Origin: a candidate division WOR-3 bacterium
GTDB lineage: Bacteria; Hydrothermota; Tepidihabitantia; SM23-42; JAOAFX01
DNA length: 64,000 nucleotides
Direction of reading: 5' to 3'
NCBI GenBank assembly: GCA_039802005.1
Contig: JBDRVV010000008.1
Coordinates: 1-64,000 of the forward strand
Made by a program: the position numbers and the translations under genes. Positions within the stretch are counted from its first letter, which is position 1; every line of letters begins with the position of its first letter. A model generated the notes under the pieces. It made no database searches and was not told the origin of the DNA. It was given only the letters and a program-made list of their open reading frames with translations. Positions 27,839 to 37,214 of this stretch are shown here, in pieces.

Positions 27839-28912
27839 ATGATAGTAAAAATCTCCGACGACACAGAGATTTATAAAAAGACCGCAGAGATATTAAATAG
27901 TAATGGCATAGTTGCCATTCCTACCGATACTATTTACGGATTGGCTGTAGATGGCACGAACTATGAGGCAATAGAGCGACTGAGAAATTTAAAGAAAAGG
28001 ACGAATAAACCATTTACTTATTTCATTCCAAGGCGTTTACTACAAAATTATGCAATCATTACCAAAAAGAAAATAATTGACTATTTTATTCCTGGGCCAG
28101 TTACCGTTATATTAAAAAAGAACCCGGAATGTAATCTGGGAGATGAAGAAGAAAAAATTGGAGTGCGAATTCCTGCGCTTGATTTTATAATCAACTTCCT
28201 TGATTATTATAATAAACCGATTGCAGTCACAAGTGCCAATATTTCAGGTGAACCAGAATTACATAGTCCGTCTGAGATATCCGAAAAATTTCCTGAAATT
28301 GAATTGATAATAGATGCAGGACCTTTATATGGAAAGTCCTCCACGGTCATTGATTTAACTACACCGGTTCCCGTTATTAGACGTAAAGGTGCGGTACCAA
28401 TCCTTGAGATTGAAAAAATCTATGGCCGAAGGATAAAACTTGACCCATCATTAAAATTTAATCTGCTATTTGTCTGCTCGGGCAATTCCTGTCGTAGTCC
28501 TATGGCTCAGGGAATTATAAAAACCATGTTGAATGAAAGATATGTTGATGTAAAATCAGCTGGTACCGCAGCAATAGACGGACTTCCGGCAAGTGAAAAT
28601 GCACGTGTTGTAGTAAAAGAATTTGGTGGCGATATCACAGACCATAGAACAAGATATATAACAAAAGAATTGATTGATGAAGCGGATTTGATACTTGTTA
28701 TGGAATTTAAACATTACGAAACAATTTTAGAACTTTCACCTGATTCCGCAATAAAAACATTTTTATTGAAGGAGTATAAAAGAAGAACAAAATATAATGA
28801 GGTATCAGATCCCGTAGGTAAGGATTTATCCGCCTATCGTGATACTGCGCTGGAAATGTTTCCTTCCCTGAAGTTTGTTGCCGAAGATATAAAAAGGCGG
28901 TTAATGGAATGA
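27839..28912 (+). CDS. TsaC/YrdC - low-molecular-weight phosphatase fusion
   Basis: A 357-residue two-domain protein. Residues about 1-195 are a Sua5/YrdC/YwlC domain that makes threonylcarbamoyl-AMP for tRNA t6A37 (AIPTDTIYGLAVDG, LKKRTNKPF, SANISGEPELHS). Residues about 203-357 are a low-molecular-weight phosphotyrosine phosphatase/arsenate-reductase-type domain with the catalytic loop FVCSGNSCRSPMA and a distal DP (SDPVGKD). The two activities have no evident biochemical link; in Bacillus ywlC and ywlE are near neighbours, so fusion from an old gene pair is plausible. It overlaps the thyX gene by four bases (ATGA). Confidence 0.88.
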   Translation: MIVKISDDTEIYKKTAEILNSNGIVAIPTDTIYGLAVDGTNYEAIERLRNLKKRTNKPFTYFIPRRLLQNYAIITKKKIIDYFIPGPVTVILKKNPECNLGDEEEKIGVRIPALDFIINFLDYYNKPIAVTSANISGEPELHSPSEISEKFPEIELIIDAGPLYGKSSTVIDLTTPVPVIRRKGAVPILEIEKIYGRRIKLDPSLKFNLLFVCSGNSCRSPMAQGIIKTMLNERYVDVKSAGTAAIDGLPASENARVVVKEFGGDITDHRTRYITKELIDEADLILVMEFKHYETILELSPDSAIKTFLLKEYKRRTKYNEVSDPVGKDLSAYRDTALEMFPSLKFVAEDIKRRLME

Positions 28913-30384
28913 AGGTTACTCTCGCCGGGTATAATATTGATACAGAGCTGATTAAAATATTAAAAAATAATAAAAAGAGTTTTGTCTTTACCCCGGAAAC
29001 AATTTCTGCGGCCTATGCAAGGATAAGTCGGAGTCCAAAATCTGTCGGTGCTTTAAGAAAAGAGGCATTAAGAGAGATTGAAAAGGCAAGACGTTCAAAT
29101 AGAAGAATTATCTTTGAAATGAGCCATCACTCCATCGCTGAGCATGCGGTATTCAACTTTGATATAGTCGGCATATCACGCCGGGCAGTAGAAGAATTTG
29201 AAAGGTTCAGGCTCTGTTCCTATACAGAGAAATCTCAGCGTTATGTTACATTAAAAGGCGATTTTGTAATTCCAGAAGAAATTAAAAAGACAAATCTGTT
29301 GAATGAATATTGCGAGGTCATTGAACTCCAGAACAACCTTTATAAAAAATTATTTGAAAAGTTAAAATCTTTTAAATTGAAAAATTGTCCAATTTCAAAT
29401 GACCCTAAGTCACTCAAGTTTATTGAAAATTCGGCAAAAGAGGATGCAAGGTATATACTTTCCTTTGCAACCCAGACCCAGCTCGGAACAACAATAAATG
29501 CACGTAACCTTGAGCTTATGATTCGCAGATTCGCCAGCCACCAACTTAAAGAAATTCAGGAACTGGGCAGAAAATTATTTAAAGAAGTTAAGCATATTGC
29601 TCCATCAATTATTCTTTTCTATAAGGCTAATGATTACGACCAGAAGACTTACTTAGAATTAGAGAAATATTGCAAAAAACTTCAAATAAAAGAAAATAAT
29701 ATTGCTGAAGTTGCACTTGAAGATTACACAAAAAATAGCGATGACAAAATACTCGCTACTTTACTATTTCGGGTTAAAAAATCTTCTTTTGGTAAATGTT
29801 TGGATACTGTAAAAAAAATGACCAAAGATGAAAAAATAGAATTATTTAAGACTGCCTGTCAGTATCTTGAATTATATGATACGGTTTTGAGGGAATTTGA
29901 GGTGGTAAATTACACATTCTCGGCAGTGGTATCGGGTGGGTGTTTTGGCCAGTTAAAACGCCATCGCATAATGACCTTGATAAATCAGGATTACGACCCG
30001 GAATTGGGTATCACTATTCCTCCCTCTATCGTCGAAATCAAAATGGTTGATGAATTCAAAAAGGTTATCAATAAAACCGAGAAATTATACAAAAAGTTCA
30101 TTAAAATTGCTCCGATTGCGGGGTCTTATATTCTTACCAATGCCCACAGAAAAAGGGTGCTTCTAAATTTAAATTTAAGAGAATTGTATCATTTCGCACG
30201 CCTGCGTGAAGATCCAACTGCCCAGTGGGATATCCAAAATCTTGCCCGGGCAATGAGCAAAGAGGCAAAGAAGGTATCACCAATCACAACCTTGCTCTTA
30301 TGCAGTAAGACAGAATATCCAGAATTTTATCATAAATTATATAGAAAATACCCAAAGGTTACAGAAGTTCCACCACCTGGTTAG
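28909..30384 (+). CDS. thyX: Tandem-domain flavin-dependent thymidylate synthase (ThyX)
   Basis: A 491-residue protein made of two ThyX-type halves. The first half has RFRLCSYTEKSQRY (R99-Y112), matching the ThyX signature RHRxxSxNExSxRY with F for H, preceded by SHHSIAEHAVFNF. The second half has a weaker copy, LKRHRIMTLINQDYDPE near residue 350. Normal ThyX is about 220-250 residues and forms a tetramer, so this may be a pseudo-tetramer built from two chains with one degenerate half. It would convert dUMP to dTMP; the dCMP deaminase at 8752 can supply dUMP. No thyA is present here. Confidence 0.83.
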   Translation: MKVTLAGYNIDTELIKILKNNKKSFVFTPETISAAYARISRSPKSVGALRKEALREIEKARRSNRRIIFEMSHHSIAEHAVFNFDIVGISRRAVEEFERFRLCSYTEKSQRYVTLKGDFVIPEEIKKTNLLNEYCEVIELQNNLYKKLFEKLKSFKLKNCPISNDPKSLKFIENSAKEDARYILSFATQTQLGTTINARNLELMIRRFASHQLKEIQELGRKLFKEVKHIAPSIILFYKANDYDQKTYLELEKYCKKLQIKENNIAEVALEDYTKNSDDKILATLLFRVKKSSFGKCLDTVKKMTKDEKIELFKTACQYLELYDTVLREFEVVNYTFSAVVSGGCFGQLKRHRIMTLINQDYDPELGITIPPSIVEIKMVDEFKKVINKTEKLYKKFIKIAPIAGSYILTNAHRKRVLLNLNLRELYHFARLREDPTAQWDIQNLARAMSKEAKKVSPITTLLLCSKTEYPEFYHKLYRKYPKVTEVPPPG

Positions 30385-32753: not shown

Positions 32754-32781
32754 TTGACTTTTTTCAAAAAATTTATATAAT
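32754..32781 (+). promoter_or_regulatory. Promoter of the ligase-aminotransferase-M20 operon
   Basis: TTGACT (32754-32759), 16-base spacer, TATAAT (32776-32781). An ATG (32788) opening a 27-codon frame starts 6 bases after the -10 box. Confidence 0.75.
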
Positions 32782-32787
32782 GGAGTC

Positions 32788-32871
32788 ATGGAATTGAGAC
32801 TAATATCAAGTTCTTCCCACCATATTATGAGAGATAATAAGAATAAGGGTCCGGGCTTTCTGCTTTTATGA
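32788..32871 (+). CDS. Candidate leader peptide (27 residues)
   Basis: The frame starts at the predicted first transcribed bases and reads MELRLI, four serines, two histidines, then a charged middle, and ends GPGFLLL before TGA. The last codons overlap the 5' arm of a hairpin that competes with a terminator. The serine/histidine run and leucine run are the kind of codon clusters used in attenuator peptides. I do not recognise a known leader family with certainty. Confidence 0.6.
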   Translation: MELRLISSSSHHIMRDNKNKGPGFLLL

Positions 32872-32894
32872 GTCTTTGCTTTAGCGGAAAGCCC
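32853..32894 (+). promoter_or_regulatory. Antiterminator-like hairpin of the leader
   Basis: GGGCTTTCTGCT (32853-32864) pairs with AGCGGAAAGCCC (32883-32894), 12 pairs including one G-U. Its 3' arm shares 32888-32894 with the 5' arm of the terminator, so only one of the two can form. The leader-peptide stop lies in the loop. Confidence 0.6.
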
Positions 32895-32913
32895 ACCAAA
32901 ATTGGTGGGCTTT
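32888..32913 (+). terminator. Intrinsic terminator before the ligase gene
   Basis: AAAGCCCACCAA (32888-32899) pairs perfectly with TTGGTGGGCTTT (32902-32913), and the RNA continues in a U-tract. It stands 25 bases before the ligase start, between promoter and gene, so it is an attenuator unless read-through is regulated. Confidence 0.8.
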
Positions 32914-32938
32914 TTTATTTTATGAAAGGAGGTATAGT

Positions 32939-34639
32939 TTGCGATTAAGGTTGGAGAAAATAAAGACCCGGCAAGTTCTTAAGGCATTAGAACTTGCAGA
33001 AAGAGAAGGTGAGACGAATCTTTATGGCATTGAGAAAGAATTTGCATTTATCAATGCATCAAGTCTTTATGCGGTCCAGAAGATAGGGAGACAATCTGCC
33101 TATAAATTCATAACTACATATGGTGATATTCCGTTTGAATTTCGCAGTAGAATAATGCCTGAGGTCTTTGATTACATGATTGAAGTCATTACTGAACCCG
33201 AATTTACTTATCAACAGGCAGTTGAAGAGATATTAAGAGCAGAGGCAAGTTTATGGTCTTCACTTAACCATATCCAGAATGAATTTCCCAATATGGAAGA
33301 GATACTTTTAAGCAGTGGCACATTATATAAACCAGCACAGATTGAGAATGAAAACATCCCTGAAGTCTGGGGTAAAGATAAGAAGGCATACCTTGAAGAA
33401 ATGGTAAGACGCTATGGTGAGAAATTGACACCGCAGGGTATGCACGGAAATATCTCTATTCCCGAACCCCTGATTGCATACCAGTACCACCGTTCTAATG
33501 CAAAAAAAGAGCGTGGAAGCACAGGTTATATTGATTTCAAGAATGAAATTTATATCTGGCTCGCCTGTAGGTTAAGGGCATTTGTAAGTCTGTTCATTGC
33601 GATTGAAGCAAATTCTCCCTTTGATTATGTTATAGAAAATGGAAATATCTATACCGTCTTGACTGGTTATCAATCTAATCGCTGGATGAAATTGCCCCGG
33701 ATTGAGAGCACCAATCATCCATCTATTTTAAGTGATTATACACATTTTCAAAAAATCTCATTAATGTTGATTAACCAGGGGATTATCATCGGTGCCAATA
33801 ATTATATGCCGGTAAGGCCCAAAGGTGAAAGAAGGCTCGGCGAAATGCCATTATCATTTGAACGGGCATGCTGGTTCCATGACATTGTTCTCGATAAAAA
33901 TGAAATAGAATCAGACCCATTGCTATGCGATTTACAGGGTTATGACGATTTAACATTTATAGAAAAATTAGCGATTGCCGAAAAAACCGGATGGTTGAAA
34001 AAGAAAGGATTTACCTTAAATGATTTAATAAAATTATGGCAGAGAGATAATGTTCGGAGGCTGTTAGGTGTTCCATTAAGCCGACTGGAAATCAGGTGTG
34101 AAGAAGCGGGTGGAGATTATTACTTTGAACGGGCAAAATCTGGTTTCATATTTACCCTTGCACTTTATCTATTTGCGAACCCAGAATTTGGCGTTGAATT
34201 CACCTATGACCGAAAAGATCTAAAAAAGGCAGAATTCAACGAAAATCAAGCAATGAAGCAAGGATTGAATAGTGAGATAATACATCCTTTCCTCAATAAA
34301 AATATTAAGATGCGTGAATTCCTTTCTATGATACTGAATACACTTAAAGACTTTGCCTGTGAGTTGGGAACATACGAGGATTTAAAACCACTTTATGAAT
34401 TGAGTAAAGGTAAAGAAAATGAAGCCGAGAAAAAGATAAATAGAGTCCTTAAAACTTTAGGAAAAAATCCGCAAAAAACAAAAAATGGTTTTATCATTGT
34501 TCCTGATGAAATAATCAGGCACGATCTAATAGAGCGAAAGAAATATCTGCTTGAAGACCTGTCAGAAAAATTAGACTGGGATATCTACGAATTTAAAGAT
34601 TATCCCCAGGATAATATAATTATTAAATCATATAAATAA
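32939..34639 (+). CDS. GCS2-family carboxylate-amine (glutamate-cysteine-like) ligase
   Basis: A 566-residue ATP-dependent ligase homologue. Features of the glutamate-cysteine ligase type 2 fold are GIEKEFAFI near residue 28, a MHGNISIPEP strand in place of the usual HVH block, LRAFVSLFIAIEANSPFD, and GANNYMPVRPKGERRLGEMPLS. It is longer than YbdK-type ligases (about 370) because of a C-terminal helical region. It would form an amide between a carboxylate (often glutamate) and an amine; the substrates are unknown. The TTG start is set by AAAGGAGGT at 32926. It is the first structural gene behind the attenuator. Confidence 0.68.
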   Translation: MRLRLEKIKTRQVLKALELAEREGETNLYGIEKEFAFINASSLYAVQKIGRQSAYKFITTYGDIPFEFRSRIMPEVFDYMIEVITEPEFTYQQAVEEILRAEASLWSSLNHIQNEFPNMEEILLSSGTLYKPAQIENENIPEVWGKDKKAYLEEMVRRYGEKLTPQGMHGNISIPEPLIAYQYHRSNAKKERGSTGYIDFKNEIYIWLACRLRAFVSLFIAIEANSPFDYVIENGNIYTVLTGYQSNRWMKLPRIESTNHPSILSDYTHFQKISLMLINQGIIIGANNYMPVRPKGERRLGEMPLSFERACWFHDIVLDKNEIESDPLLCDLQGYDDLTFIEKLAIAEKTGWLKKKGFTLNDLIKLWQRDNVRRLLGVPLSRLEIRCEEAGGDYYFERAKSGFIFTLALYLFANPEFGVEFTYDRKDLKKAEFNENQAMKQGLNSEIIHPFLNKNIKMREFLSMILNTLKDFACELGTYEDLKPLYELSKGKENEAEKKINRVLKTLGKNPQKTKNGFIIVPDEIIRHDLIERKKYLLEDLSEKLDWDIYEFKDYPQDNIIIKSYK

Positions 34640-34650
34640 GGGGGTAGTTT

Positions 34651-36042
34651 ATGAGAAATTATAATGTTTGTTATCCAGACCAGGACATTTCAAAAAATCT
34701 CATCCCTCAATTTTGCGACAAAGAAGAAAATCTGATTCCTGTTTCAAAATACAATCGCCGTGATGTCTGGCCCTCCAAAATGTTTACCATAAAACTGGAA
34801 CTCGATGAATTCTCTAAAAATAATCCGAACATACCTGTTTATGATGCATCCCAGGGTGATGGTGGAATGAGCCTCGGTGGCATTCCAAAACAGGAGATTG
34901 CTGAGGCGTTATTGAAATACCTACCTGATAATAGAACTACTAAATACGGGGAACCAAATGGAAGTTTCATATTGCGCAAGGCGATATATGAAAATTACTA
35001 CAGATTTGATTCCGATACCGGGCTGACACCAGAAAATATTTTGGTCGGTGATGGTGGTAGGGATATATTACAGAAATGGTATCAGGCTATTTCCCAGGAT
35101 ACGGGTGGAAACGGTGATTTTATTCTCGTCTCTGCCGCACCATGGGGTTCTTATCCTGAAGGCACTTATATCAATGGATTTAATATGGTGTGTGCTCCAG
35201 GAAATCCGGACAATGCCTTCAAGATAACCCCAGAAGGGATCGACCTTTCAATAGAATTTGTCCAAGAACATTCGCGGAAAATAATCGGCCTTATCATTAC
35301 AAGTCCTGATAACCCCACAGGAAATTATCTCAGCGAAGATGAAATGGTTACACTAATTGAACATGCCTCCGCAAGAAAAATCAAACATATCTTCGTCGAC
35401 CTTATATATCAGGCAGTGACCGACCCTGAAATCGGTTGTTATAATGTGAATAGAATCTATAAAAAATTGAGTTTTGAGGCAAAGCAGAAAGTTTGTTTTA
35501 TGGATGGATTAACAAAGATGGCCGGTGCATCTAATATCAGGAATGCCCACCTTGTCTGTGGTTCAACTGAAATAGCAAAGAAGTTAAAGGGAATCTCTAC
35601 ACATACCATTCTTCCCAATGTTGCCGGTGAGGCCGTCGCATACGAAATTTATAGGCTGGAAAAACCACTTGAACATCCATGGGTAAAAAGGGTCATTGAA
35701 CCCACTGCGAAGAGCCGAGCAATTGTGAAAAAAAGATTAAAAGAACTTGGATTCAAATCCATTTGTGACCAGGGGTATTATGCATTTATCAATATTTATC
35801 CCTGGCTTGGCAAAAAGATTCCTGCTGGAAAAGAATTGATTGAGGAATCTCAGAGAAAGATTATAAATATTGAAAATGTGGAAGTGCTGAAATCGTATCT
35901 TTCTGCAAAATGTGGTATTGCAGTGATACATGGTTCGGTCTTCAGACAACCCCATTTCATAAGATTTTCTTATGCAAATTCACCCGAATATACTGATGGC
36001 GCAATCACAAGGCTTGATGCAAGTCTAAAGGAGCTTAAATGA
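34651..36042 (+). CDS. Class I/II PLP-dependent aminotransferase
   Basis: A 463-residue fold-type I aminotransferase. The PLP pocket is visible: TSPDNPTGNYLSEDEM, the aspartate/tyrosine pair in IFVDLIYQAV, the Schiff-base lysine in MDGLTKMAGASNIRNAH, and the substrate-carboxylate arginine in HFIRFSYA. The N-terminus is longer than in aspartate aminotransferase. Substrate is not predictable, but position between a carboxylate-amine ligase and an M20 peptidase suggests that it transaminates an amino-acid derivative. It overlaps the peptidase gene (ATGA). Confidence 0.82.
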   Translation: MRNYNVCYPDQDISKNLIPQFCDKEENLIPVSKYNRRDVWPSKMFTIKLELDEFSKNNPNIPVYDASQGDGGMSLGGIPKQEIAEALLKYLPDNRTTKYGEPNGSFILRKAIYENYYRFDSDTGLTPENILVGDGGRDILQKWYQAISQDTGGNGDFILVSAAPWGSYPEGTYINGFNMVCAPGNPDNAFKITPEGIDLSIEFVQEHSRKIIGLIITSPDNPTGNYLSEDEMVTLIEHASARKIKHIFVDLIYQAVTDPEIGCYNVNRIYKKLSFEAKQKVCFMDGLTKMAGASNIRNAHLVCGSTEIAKKLKGISTHTILPNVAGEAVAYEIYRLEKPLEHPWVKRVIEPTAKSRAIVKKRLKELGFKSICDQGYYAFINIYPWLGKKIPAGKELIEESQRKIINIENVEVLKSYLSAKCGIAVIHGSVFRQPHFIRFSYANSPEYTDGAITRLDASLKELK

Positions 36043-37214
36043 ATAATCTTAACATTGAGAAAAAGGAAAAAGAGATTTTGAACGTAGCAATGCATTTGAT
36101 AAAAATTCCTGCGTTCAGTATTGGTAGATTTAAGAACCTTAAAGGAATTTCTGAGTGTTTTGATTTTATCGTTGATTACTTTAAAAAAGCAGGTTTAAGG
36201 GTGATTGAATTTAAAGATAAAAAGACCATACCGGGTTTATATTGTGATCTGGGCAATAAAGAAAAACTTTCGGGTAAAATGCTTTTTGCCGGGCATTATG
36301 ACCGTGTTTCCCCGATATCTGAAGAACAGATGAACCCAATGATTGATGGAGAATGGCTTAAGGCACGCGGTGCTACAGATATGCTCTGCACCGTTGCCAC
36401 AATTATGGTATTGTTTAAAGATTTGAAACTTGCAAAAGAAGATTTAGAATGTGGATTGCTCCTTGTTGGAAATGAAGAGCCCGGTGAGACTGAAAAATGG
36501 GGCACACATTATATCCTTGAAGAATTGAAAAATAGAAATGATTATTATCCTGATTTTGTTATTGTGGGTGAAAGAACCGGCGAAGGAGGTCAGAAGTTCG
36601 GAAAATTGGAATATAAAAATCGTGGGCTCGTAAGGATAAAGATGGAAGCATCAGGCAGTGCTGTTCATACTGCCCAACTAAGGGGGTTAACCGTGGTTGA
36701 AAGAATAATGGAATTTAGAAAAAGAATTAATGATTACCTTGCAGAATCTTTTGATAATGAATGGAAGACGACATTTACTTTTCCTTATTTTATCACTGGT
36801 GAAGATGGGAATTTTAATACTACACCGACAGGTGCAAAGGCAGGGTTGGAAATAAGACCAATCCCTGAGCAGGATTTTAATGGGATAATAAAATATATCG
36901 AAGAAACATCTAAAGAGTTTAATCTTGAGATAGATTTCGTCAATAAAGAACCAGGAATAATAACATCTTTAGAAAATCAATACATTCATAAACTTATCCA
37001 ATCAATTGTGAAGATTACTGGTGGAAATCCATCTGATTATCTTGGGGTGGGCAAACCCCACGCTACACAGGCAAGATTCATAAAATCACCGGTGATTATT
37101 TTTGGTCAATCGGGCATTAATCCCCACGGTGATAACGAAGCTCATTACATTCCAAGTATAATGCCGTATTATCGTGTGCTCCATGAATTTTTATTAACAA
37201 CGGGTCAAACATAA
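36039..37214 (+). CDS. M20-family metallopeptidase/deacylase
   Basis: A 391-residue enzyme of the ArgE/DapE/ACY1 clan. The di-zinc site is formed by GHYDRV (H, D), ARGATDMLC (D), the catalytic pair GNEEPGE, and PHGDNEAHY near the C-terminus; the dimerisation domain begins around RIKMEASGSAVHTAQLRG. It would hydrolyse an amide such as an N-acyl or gamma-glutamyl amino acid. It is coupled to the aminotransferase by a four-base overlap and probably removes a group added by the ligase, which is inference from context only. Confidence 0.83.
   Translation: MNNLNIEKKEKEILNVAMHLIKIPAFSIGRFKNLKGISECFDFIVDYFKKAGLRVIEFKDKKTIPGLYCDLGNKEKLSGKMLFAGHYDRVSPISEEQMNPMIDGEWLKARGATDMLCTVATIMVLFKDLKLAKEDLECGLLLVGNEEPGETEKWGTHYILEELKNRNDYYPDFVIVGERTGEGGQKFGKLEYKNRGLVRIKMEASGSAVHTAQLRGLTVVERIMEFRKRINDYLAESFDNEWKTTFTFPYFITGEDGNFNTTPTGAKAGLEIRPIPEQDFNGIIKYIEETSKEFNLEIDFVNKEPGIITSLENQYIHKLIQSIVKITGGNPSDYLGVGKPHATQARFIKSPVIIFGQSGINPHGDNEAHYIPSIMPYYRVLHEFLLTTGQT

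Follow-up and report, generated by a model that had tools for sequence, protein, structure and literature searches.

A putative ribosome-mediated attenuator with a predicted leaderless reading frame before a ligase operon of candidate phylum WOR-3

In a candidate division WOR-3 bacterium a promoter is separated from a GCS2-family ligase gene by a short reading frame and two hairpins. This arrangement raises two questions: does the leader govern transcription of the operon behind it and, if so, which signal does it read? The locus lies in a stretch of 64,000 nucleotides (the window) on contig C8 of the genome here called G000; the relatives with which it is compared, G001 and G002, belong to the same genus.

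The leader and its operon

The elements stand in the order promoter, leader reading frame, antiterminator, terminator, ribosome site and ligase gene (Table 1). The reading frame ends at the stop codon 32869-32871. Its ATG sits 6 nt past the -10 box, a spacing shared by G000, G001 and G002, and the predicted transcription start is therefore the A of the leader ATG itself. Among 1550 long reading frames of G000, the favoured place for a -10 box that has a -35 partner is 5-6 nt before the ATG, a sharp maximum (75 and 55 cases); all other distances account for fewer than 30 cases each, and mostly fewer than 10. Leaderless transcription appears, from these spacings, to be a major mode in this genome. 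Promoter-similar sites on contigs C15 and C10 are strong promoter matches only, with no such leader after them.

Table 1. Features of the leader and the operon in the window (G000)
Feature	Position	Strand	Remarks
Promoter TTGACT-16-TATAAT	32754-32781	+	11 of 12 consensus positions; -10 box conserved in G001 and G002
Leader reading frame, 27 codons, predicted leaderless	32788-32871	+	Frame and stop position common to three genomes
Segment A, CCCACCA	32816-32822	+	Can pair with D (32903-32909); core pairs in three genomes, weak covariation
Invariant control window ATG AGA GAT AAT AAG AAT AAG (M R D N K N K)	32827-32847	+	Inside a 22-nt block identical in three genomes
Segment B, antiterminator 5' arm	32853-32864	+	Overlaps last leader codons
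Segment C, antiterminator 3' arm	32883-32894	+	32888-32894 common to terminator
Intrinsic terminator hairpin, then U tract	32888-32913	+	3' arm holds segment D (TGGTGGG), 32903-32909
Ribosome site AAGGAGG of first structural gene (ligase)	32927-32933	+	Sequence
GCS2-family carboxylate-amine ligase, first gene	32939-34639	+	PF04107, 29.4 bits against a cut-off of 21
Class I/II aminotransferase	34651-36042	+	PF00155; adjoins GCS2 in G001 and G002 too
M20-family hydrolase (DapE/ArgE-like)	36039-37214	+	PF01546; conserved in G001 and G002

Both hairpins fold far more stably than shuffled sequences: the antiterminator (B:C, 12 pairs) with a z-score of -4.95 and the terminator with one of -5.06. They overlap in C and are mutually exclusive, and the end of the reading frame overlies B in all three genomes. 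The original prediction had described a strong promoter with an ATG at the expected transcription start, and a 12-bp antiterminator overlapping the 3' end of the frame; both descriptions hold. Its perfect 12-bp terminator is indeed a perfect palindrome, but the need for a hairpin loop leaves 11 pairs closing a loop of 4 nt. With B masked in folding, the leaders of G000 and G001 form the terminator, while in this static calculation that of G002 prefers A:D; masking the upstream part instead yields B:C in each of the three leaders.

The pairing of A with D, also part of the original prediction, is present in the whole-leader minimum-energy folds of G000 and G002 and absent from that of G001. Its core of 5-6 pairs is common to the three genomes and the flank carries one two-sided change; its covariation scores were matched by shuffles in 105-154 of 500 trials. 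A:D is compatible with B:C and would presumably favour read-through; the pairing is less well supported than the two hairpins. Apart from this possible pairing, no convincing conserved fold was found 5' of B in the three genomes, and no conserved I:II hairpin was found in the leader. No Rfam family reaches its gathering score in the leader region. A T-box, which the original prediction had judged absent, was not matched in the permissive list either; among leader-peptide families, the best was Phe_leader, at 29.8 bits against 55 and over the terminator region only.

The ligase is, to judge from its profile score, a remote GCS2 member. A sequence search of the PDB gave no match for it, and its AlphaFold model (mean pLDDT 36) is unusable for fold search. 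The aminotransferase and the M20 hydrolase are recognisable at the family level only. Elsewhere in the window, positions 28909-30384 encode one protein of 491 aa with two tandem Thy1 (ThyX) domains, and positions 27839-28912 a Sua5/YciO/YrdC domain fused to a low-molecular-weight protein tyrosine phosphatase.

Conservation and sister attenuators

Orthologues were sought in 199 genomes and in GTDB r220. Besides G000, only G001 and G002 of the 199 possess the ligase-aminotransferase-M20 hydrolase operon, and in both the leader layout is present. Although the genes further upstream differ, all three genomes keep the leader in front of the operon; G001 keeps it there even with an asparagine synthetase gene inserted between leader and ligase. 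Matches in GTDB r220 were a WOR-3 contig belonging to G002 and one ligase fragment, 67% identical (DTZN01000297.1, locus L009, 3197-3856), in a bin labelled Hydrogenothermaceae. The fragment lies directly after a purF-like gene, lacks an attenuator, and is probably the result of transfer or misbinning.

Aligned, the leader DNA contains runs of 22, 18 and 17 nt that are identical in the three genomes; across the same genomes the ligase gene has a three-way base identity of 63% and a longest identical run of 14 nt. The encoded peptides are MELRLISSSSHHIMRDNKNKGPGFLLL in G000, and MLGLSCLSHRTMRDNKNKDPGFLL and MMNILRSFHQTMRDNKNKDPGFLLS in the two relatives. The distance from the ATG to the invariant block varies by whole codons, the start codon moving with the promoter, and a 1-nt indel falls outside the frame, between the stop and the antiterminator arm. 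In both hairpins 100% of pair cells are kept, the antiterminator showing two one-sided changes in which A-U and G-U alternate; three sequences are too few for a covariation test to demonstrate compensatory signal. The frame and both hairpins, whose absence from relatives was to refute the original prediction, are conserved, and the peptide is conserved in part. The Ser4-His2 run and the three leucine codons that it had singled out vary between species. We rejected both as control codons; the invariant codons, those for RDNKNK, immediately precede B.

To find out what codons in this position signify, 2.13 Mb (84%) of G000 were scanned for terminators with an alternative helix, a downstream gene and a reading frame ending at the antiterminator. 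Nine of 85 terminator-like hairpins combine a strong alternative helix with a downstream gene, and the strongest alternative helices belong to the ligase leader and to a leader before lysA. The reversed genome, used as a control, also yielded a single strong alternative helix, whose terminator was weak. The evidence is therefore the combination of parts together with their conservation, and not any one helix.

Three further strong cases of the same design were found in G000, one before lysA-lysC-ddh and two in tandem at a leu locus. The first, on contig C22, has the leader MMKNFKRYWMKKVMKGRGFSFP. The genes behind it are lysA and those for aspartate kinase and diaminopimelate dehydrogenase, the first and last of which score above the cut-offs of their NCBIfam equivalogs. 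The lysine codons of this leader are kept in G001 and G002 and thus in three species. The tandem leaders, on contig C23, carry the runs LLVILIAI and VVIILILL; homologous tandem attenuators stand before leuA in G001, and G016, a genome of the same order, has a leader whose frame includes a Leu/Ile/Val run. The sister leaders place their last control codon 5-10 nt before B. Since they bear lysine or Leu/Ile/Val codons before matching operons, the codons just before B would name the amino acid of the operon in this lineage, a rule that these attenuators, with fitting codons conserved in congeners, support. A pattern search for CCCACC...GGTGGG terminators returned 4, 4 and 2 in the three genomes, all of them these attenuators; such terminators are absent from most other genomes of the phylum.

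The leu locus has further peculiarities. The tandem attenuators occupy C23:22797-23300 (loci L155, L215 and L217), and the second is overlain by a reading frame of 92 codons (89 in G001) that starts past the first terminator. In G016 a 69-codon frame with a similar FTxEGVPxTxPxG motif follows the leader. G001 has a full leuA behind its attenuators; at the same place in G000 (C23:23330-23810) stands no more than the C-terminal part of a gene resembling isopropylmalate dehydrogenase, the result of either a deletion or an assembly fault.

The attenuation layout seen by the original prediction thus keeps its order in both relatives and recurs in three sisters before lysine and leucine genes. On the basis of the order of parts, the exclusive hairpins, their conservation and the sister attenuators, we hold it very probable that the predicted leaderless leader mRNA carries a transcription attenuator of the classical, ribosome-mediated type. 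The parts, their conservation and the matching codons of the sisters are seen directly; the coupling of ribosome to polymerase is presumed.

The signal and the rival readings

If the leader works in this manner, then the first nucleotide transcribed would be the A of the leader ATG, and the 5'-terminal AUG would be where a ribosome loads. When charged tRNA-Asn is low, the ribosome would stall within the Arg-Asp-Asn-Lys-Asn-Lys window with its leading edge at about the start of B. A ribosome footprint reaches approximately 15 nt past the start of the P-site codon; with an asparagine codon in the A site it would end at about 32848 or 32854, leaving B almost free. B would then pair with C, the terminator would be blocked and the ligase-aminotransferase-hydrolase operon transcribed. 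A ribosome that reached the stop codon would cover B, C would pair with D, and transcription would end at the U tract. Segment A, where free, could reach past the B:C hairpin to pair with D, which would favour read-through.

Which amino acid is sensed is less clear. The asparagine codons (32836-32838 and 32842-32844) lie 17 and 11 nt before B and are interleaved with two lysine AAG codons (32839-32841 and 32845-32847), 14 and 8 nt before it; with two codons of each kind the enrichment is weak. In the three genomes every control codon is invariant at its third position too, so that the constraint may be on the RNA rather than on the codons. The gene order of G001 is informative. The gene that directly follows its leader encodes asparagine synthetase A: it scores 386.5 bits on the NCBIfam equivalog NF005054, whose cut-off is 309, and the best PDB match of the product is 3p8t, an archaeal asparagine synthetase A, at 2e-54. 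In G000 and G002 the ligase operon lacks an asparagine synthetase gene and asnA sits elsewhere; no attenuator was found at the asnA locus of G000. We considered the operon as a novel and sole source of asparagine, AsnB and GatB being missing from G000-G002, and ruled this out: with asnA elsewhere in all three genomes, it is not the only route.

The same attenuator might instead sense lysine, or both amino acids, through its AAG codons. Both lysine codons are AAG, even though AAA is commoner in neighbouring genes (239 AAA against 89 AAG); a conserved AAG of the lysA leader is equally far from B, and the ligase operon includes enzymes that are DapE/DapC-like by family score. Lysine, however, is already served by an attenuated operon with lysA and ddh, and the dehydrogenase route needs neither DapC nor DapE; moreover, the gene added in G001 is an asparagine synthetase and no lysine gene. 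A lysine signal, alone or shared, is thus unlikely, if far from negligible. The position of asparagine synthetase A in G001, together with a separate attenuated operon for lysine, favours asparagine, and we regard asparagine, read via charged tRNA-Asn, as the probable signal, with considerable room for doubt. If this reading of the codons is right, the product of the operon or its use would be tied to asparagine supply.

Other explanations of the leader dispense with control codons. The conserved MRDNKNKxPGFLL could be an arrest peptide that stalls the ribosome on a small molecule, as TnaC or SpeFL does, and the strong conservation of the peptide, residues near the stop included, fits this. 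The antiterminator arm already explains the conservation of PGFLL, however, a ribosome halted near the stop would mask B and lead to termination, and the sister leaders have runs of amino-acid codons instead; we consider peptide arrest improbable. Much the same can be said of a ligand-binding riboswitch or a protein-controlled terminator with an incidental reading frame. Although a purine-rich stretch of 22 invariant nt, together with A:D if it forms, may constitute an RNA-level signal, the frame survives indels, the sister leaders have only the frame and hairpins in common, and the region gave neither an Rfam match (T-box included) nor, beyond A:D, a convincing fold 5' of B, all of which makes such control very improbable. 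A promoter and a strong terminator approximately 130 nt apart would also suit a small RNA unrelated to the operon. The exclusion of the terminator by the antiterminator, and the persistence of the leader before the operon whatever lies upstream and even with asparagine synthetase interposed, leave little to recommend it, and we give it hardly any weight.

The boldest version of the attenuator reading is an asparagine-sensing leaderless attenuator over an uncharacterised, asparagine-linked ligase-aminotransferase-M20 hydrolase pathway, in which A:D would make the untranslated leader read through by default, unlike trp; we think it less likely than not.

Relation to known attenuators

The mechanism itself is known, being that of the classical attenuator; it appears to be new in this lineage, and the presumed asparagine specificity is probably new as well. 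A 2010 survey recorded leader-peptide attenuators in Proteobacteria and Actinobacteria and extended them to Firmicutes (PMC2965389). Searches of titles and abstracts, covering few subscription journals, returned no relevant match on asparagine or lysA leader-peptide attenuators, and none of the matches listed joined WOR-3 with attenuation. The unusual traits of the ligase leader are its predicted leaderless frame, its likely asparagine specificity and its candidate-phylum host.

The system is of interest in several respects. At least three kinds of attenuator occur in one genus of a candidate phylum, with predicted leaderless leader frames, and the design offers a natural test of attenuation with ribosome loading on a 5'-terminal AUG. 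Control codons also provide a direct and testable clue to the role of an operon that sequence families leave unexplained; if the asparagine reading is true, they tie the unusual GCS2 ligase and its neighbours, the aminotransferase and the M20 hydrolase, to asparagine.

In its promoter, its short reading frame with putative control codons, its antiterminator (II:III), its terminator (III:IV) and the presumably biosynthetic genes downstream the leader resembles the trp/his/leu-type attenuators of Proteobacteria and Actinobacteria (PMC1183508, PMC1262725). It differs from them in that no conserved I:II hairpin was found, in its possible A:D pairing, in the predicted leaderless state of its frame, in its putative signal, asparagine, and in its host, candidate division WOR-3. 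The trp I:II hairpin makes an untranslated leader terminate (PMC1183508); A:D would help read-through, and its effect would thus be the opposite.

Closer at hand, the attenuators before lysA and at the leu locus in this genus share the leaderless frame ending in B, the CCCACC...GGTGGG terminator core and a similar spacing of the control window. They differ in carrying lysine or Leu/Ile/Val codons, and the lysA leaders have no A:D partner by eye; at the leu locus, in addition, the first attenuator is followed in tandem by another, which a frame of 89-92 codons reads.

Two further systems invite comparison. In mycobacteria, leaderless cysteine-sensing upstream reading frames control the operon behind them through amino-acid codons, as would be the case here; to our knowledge they are not based on an intrinsic terminator hairpin, unlike the WOR-3 leader. 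In Firmicutes, the T-box leaders of asparagine genes bind the tRNA directly, and uncharged tRNA-Asn decides between their terminator and antiterminator; the WOR-3 leader, which has no T-box match, carries a reading frame.
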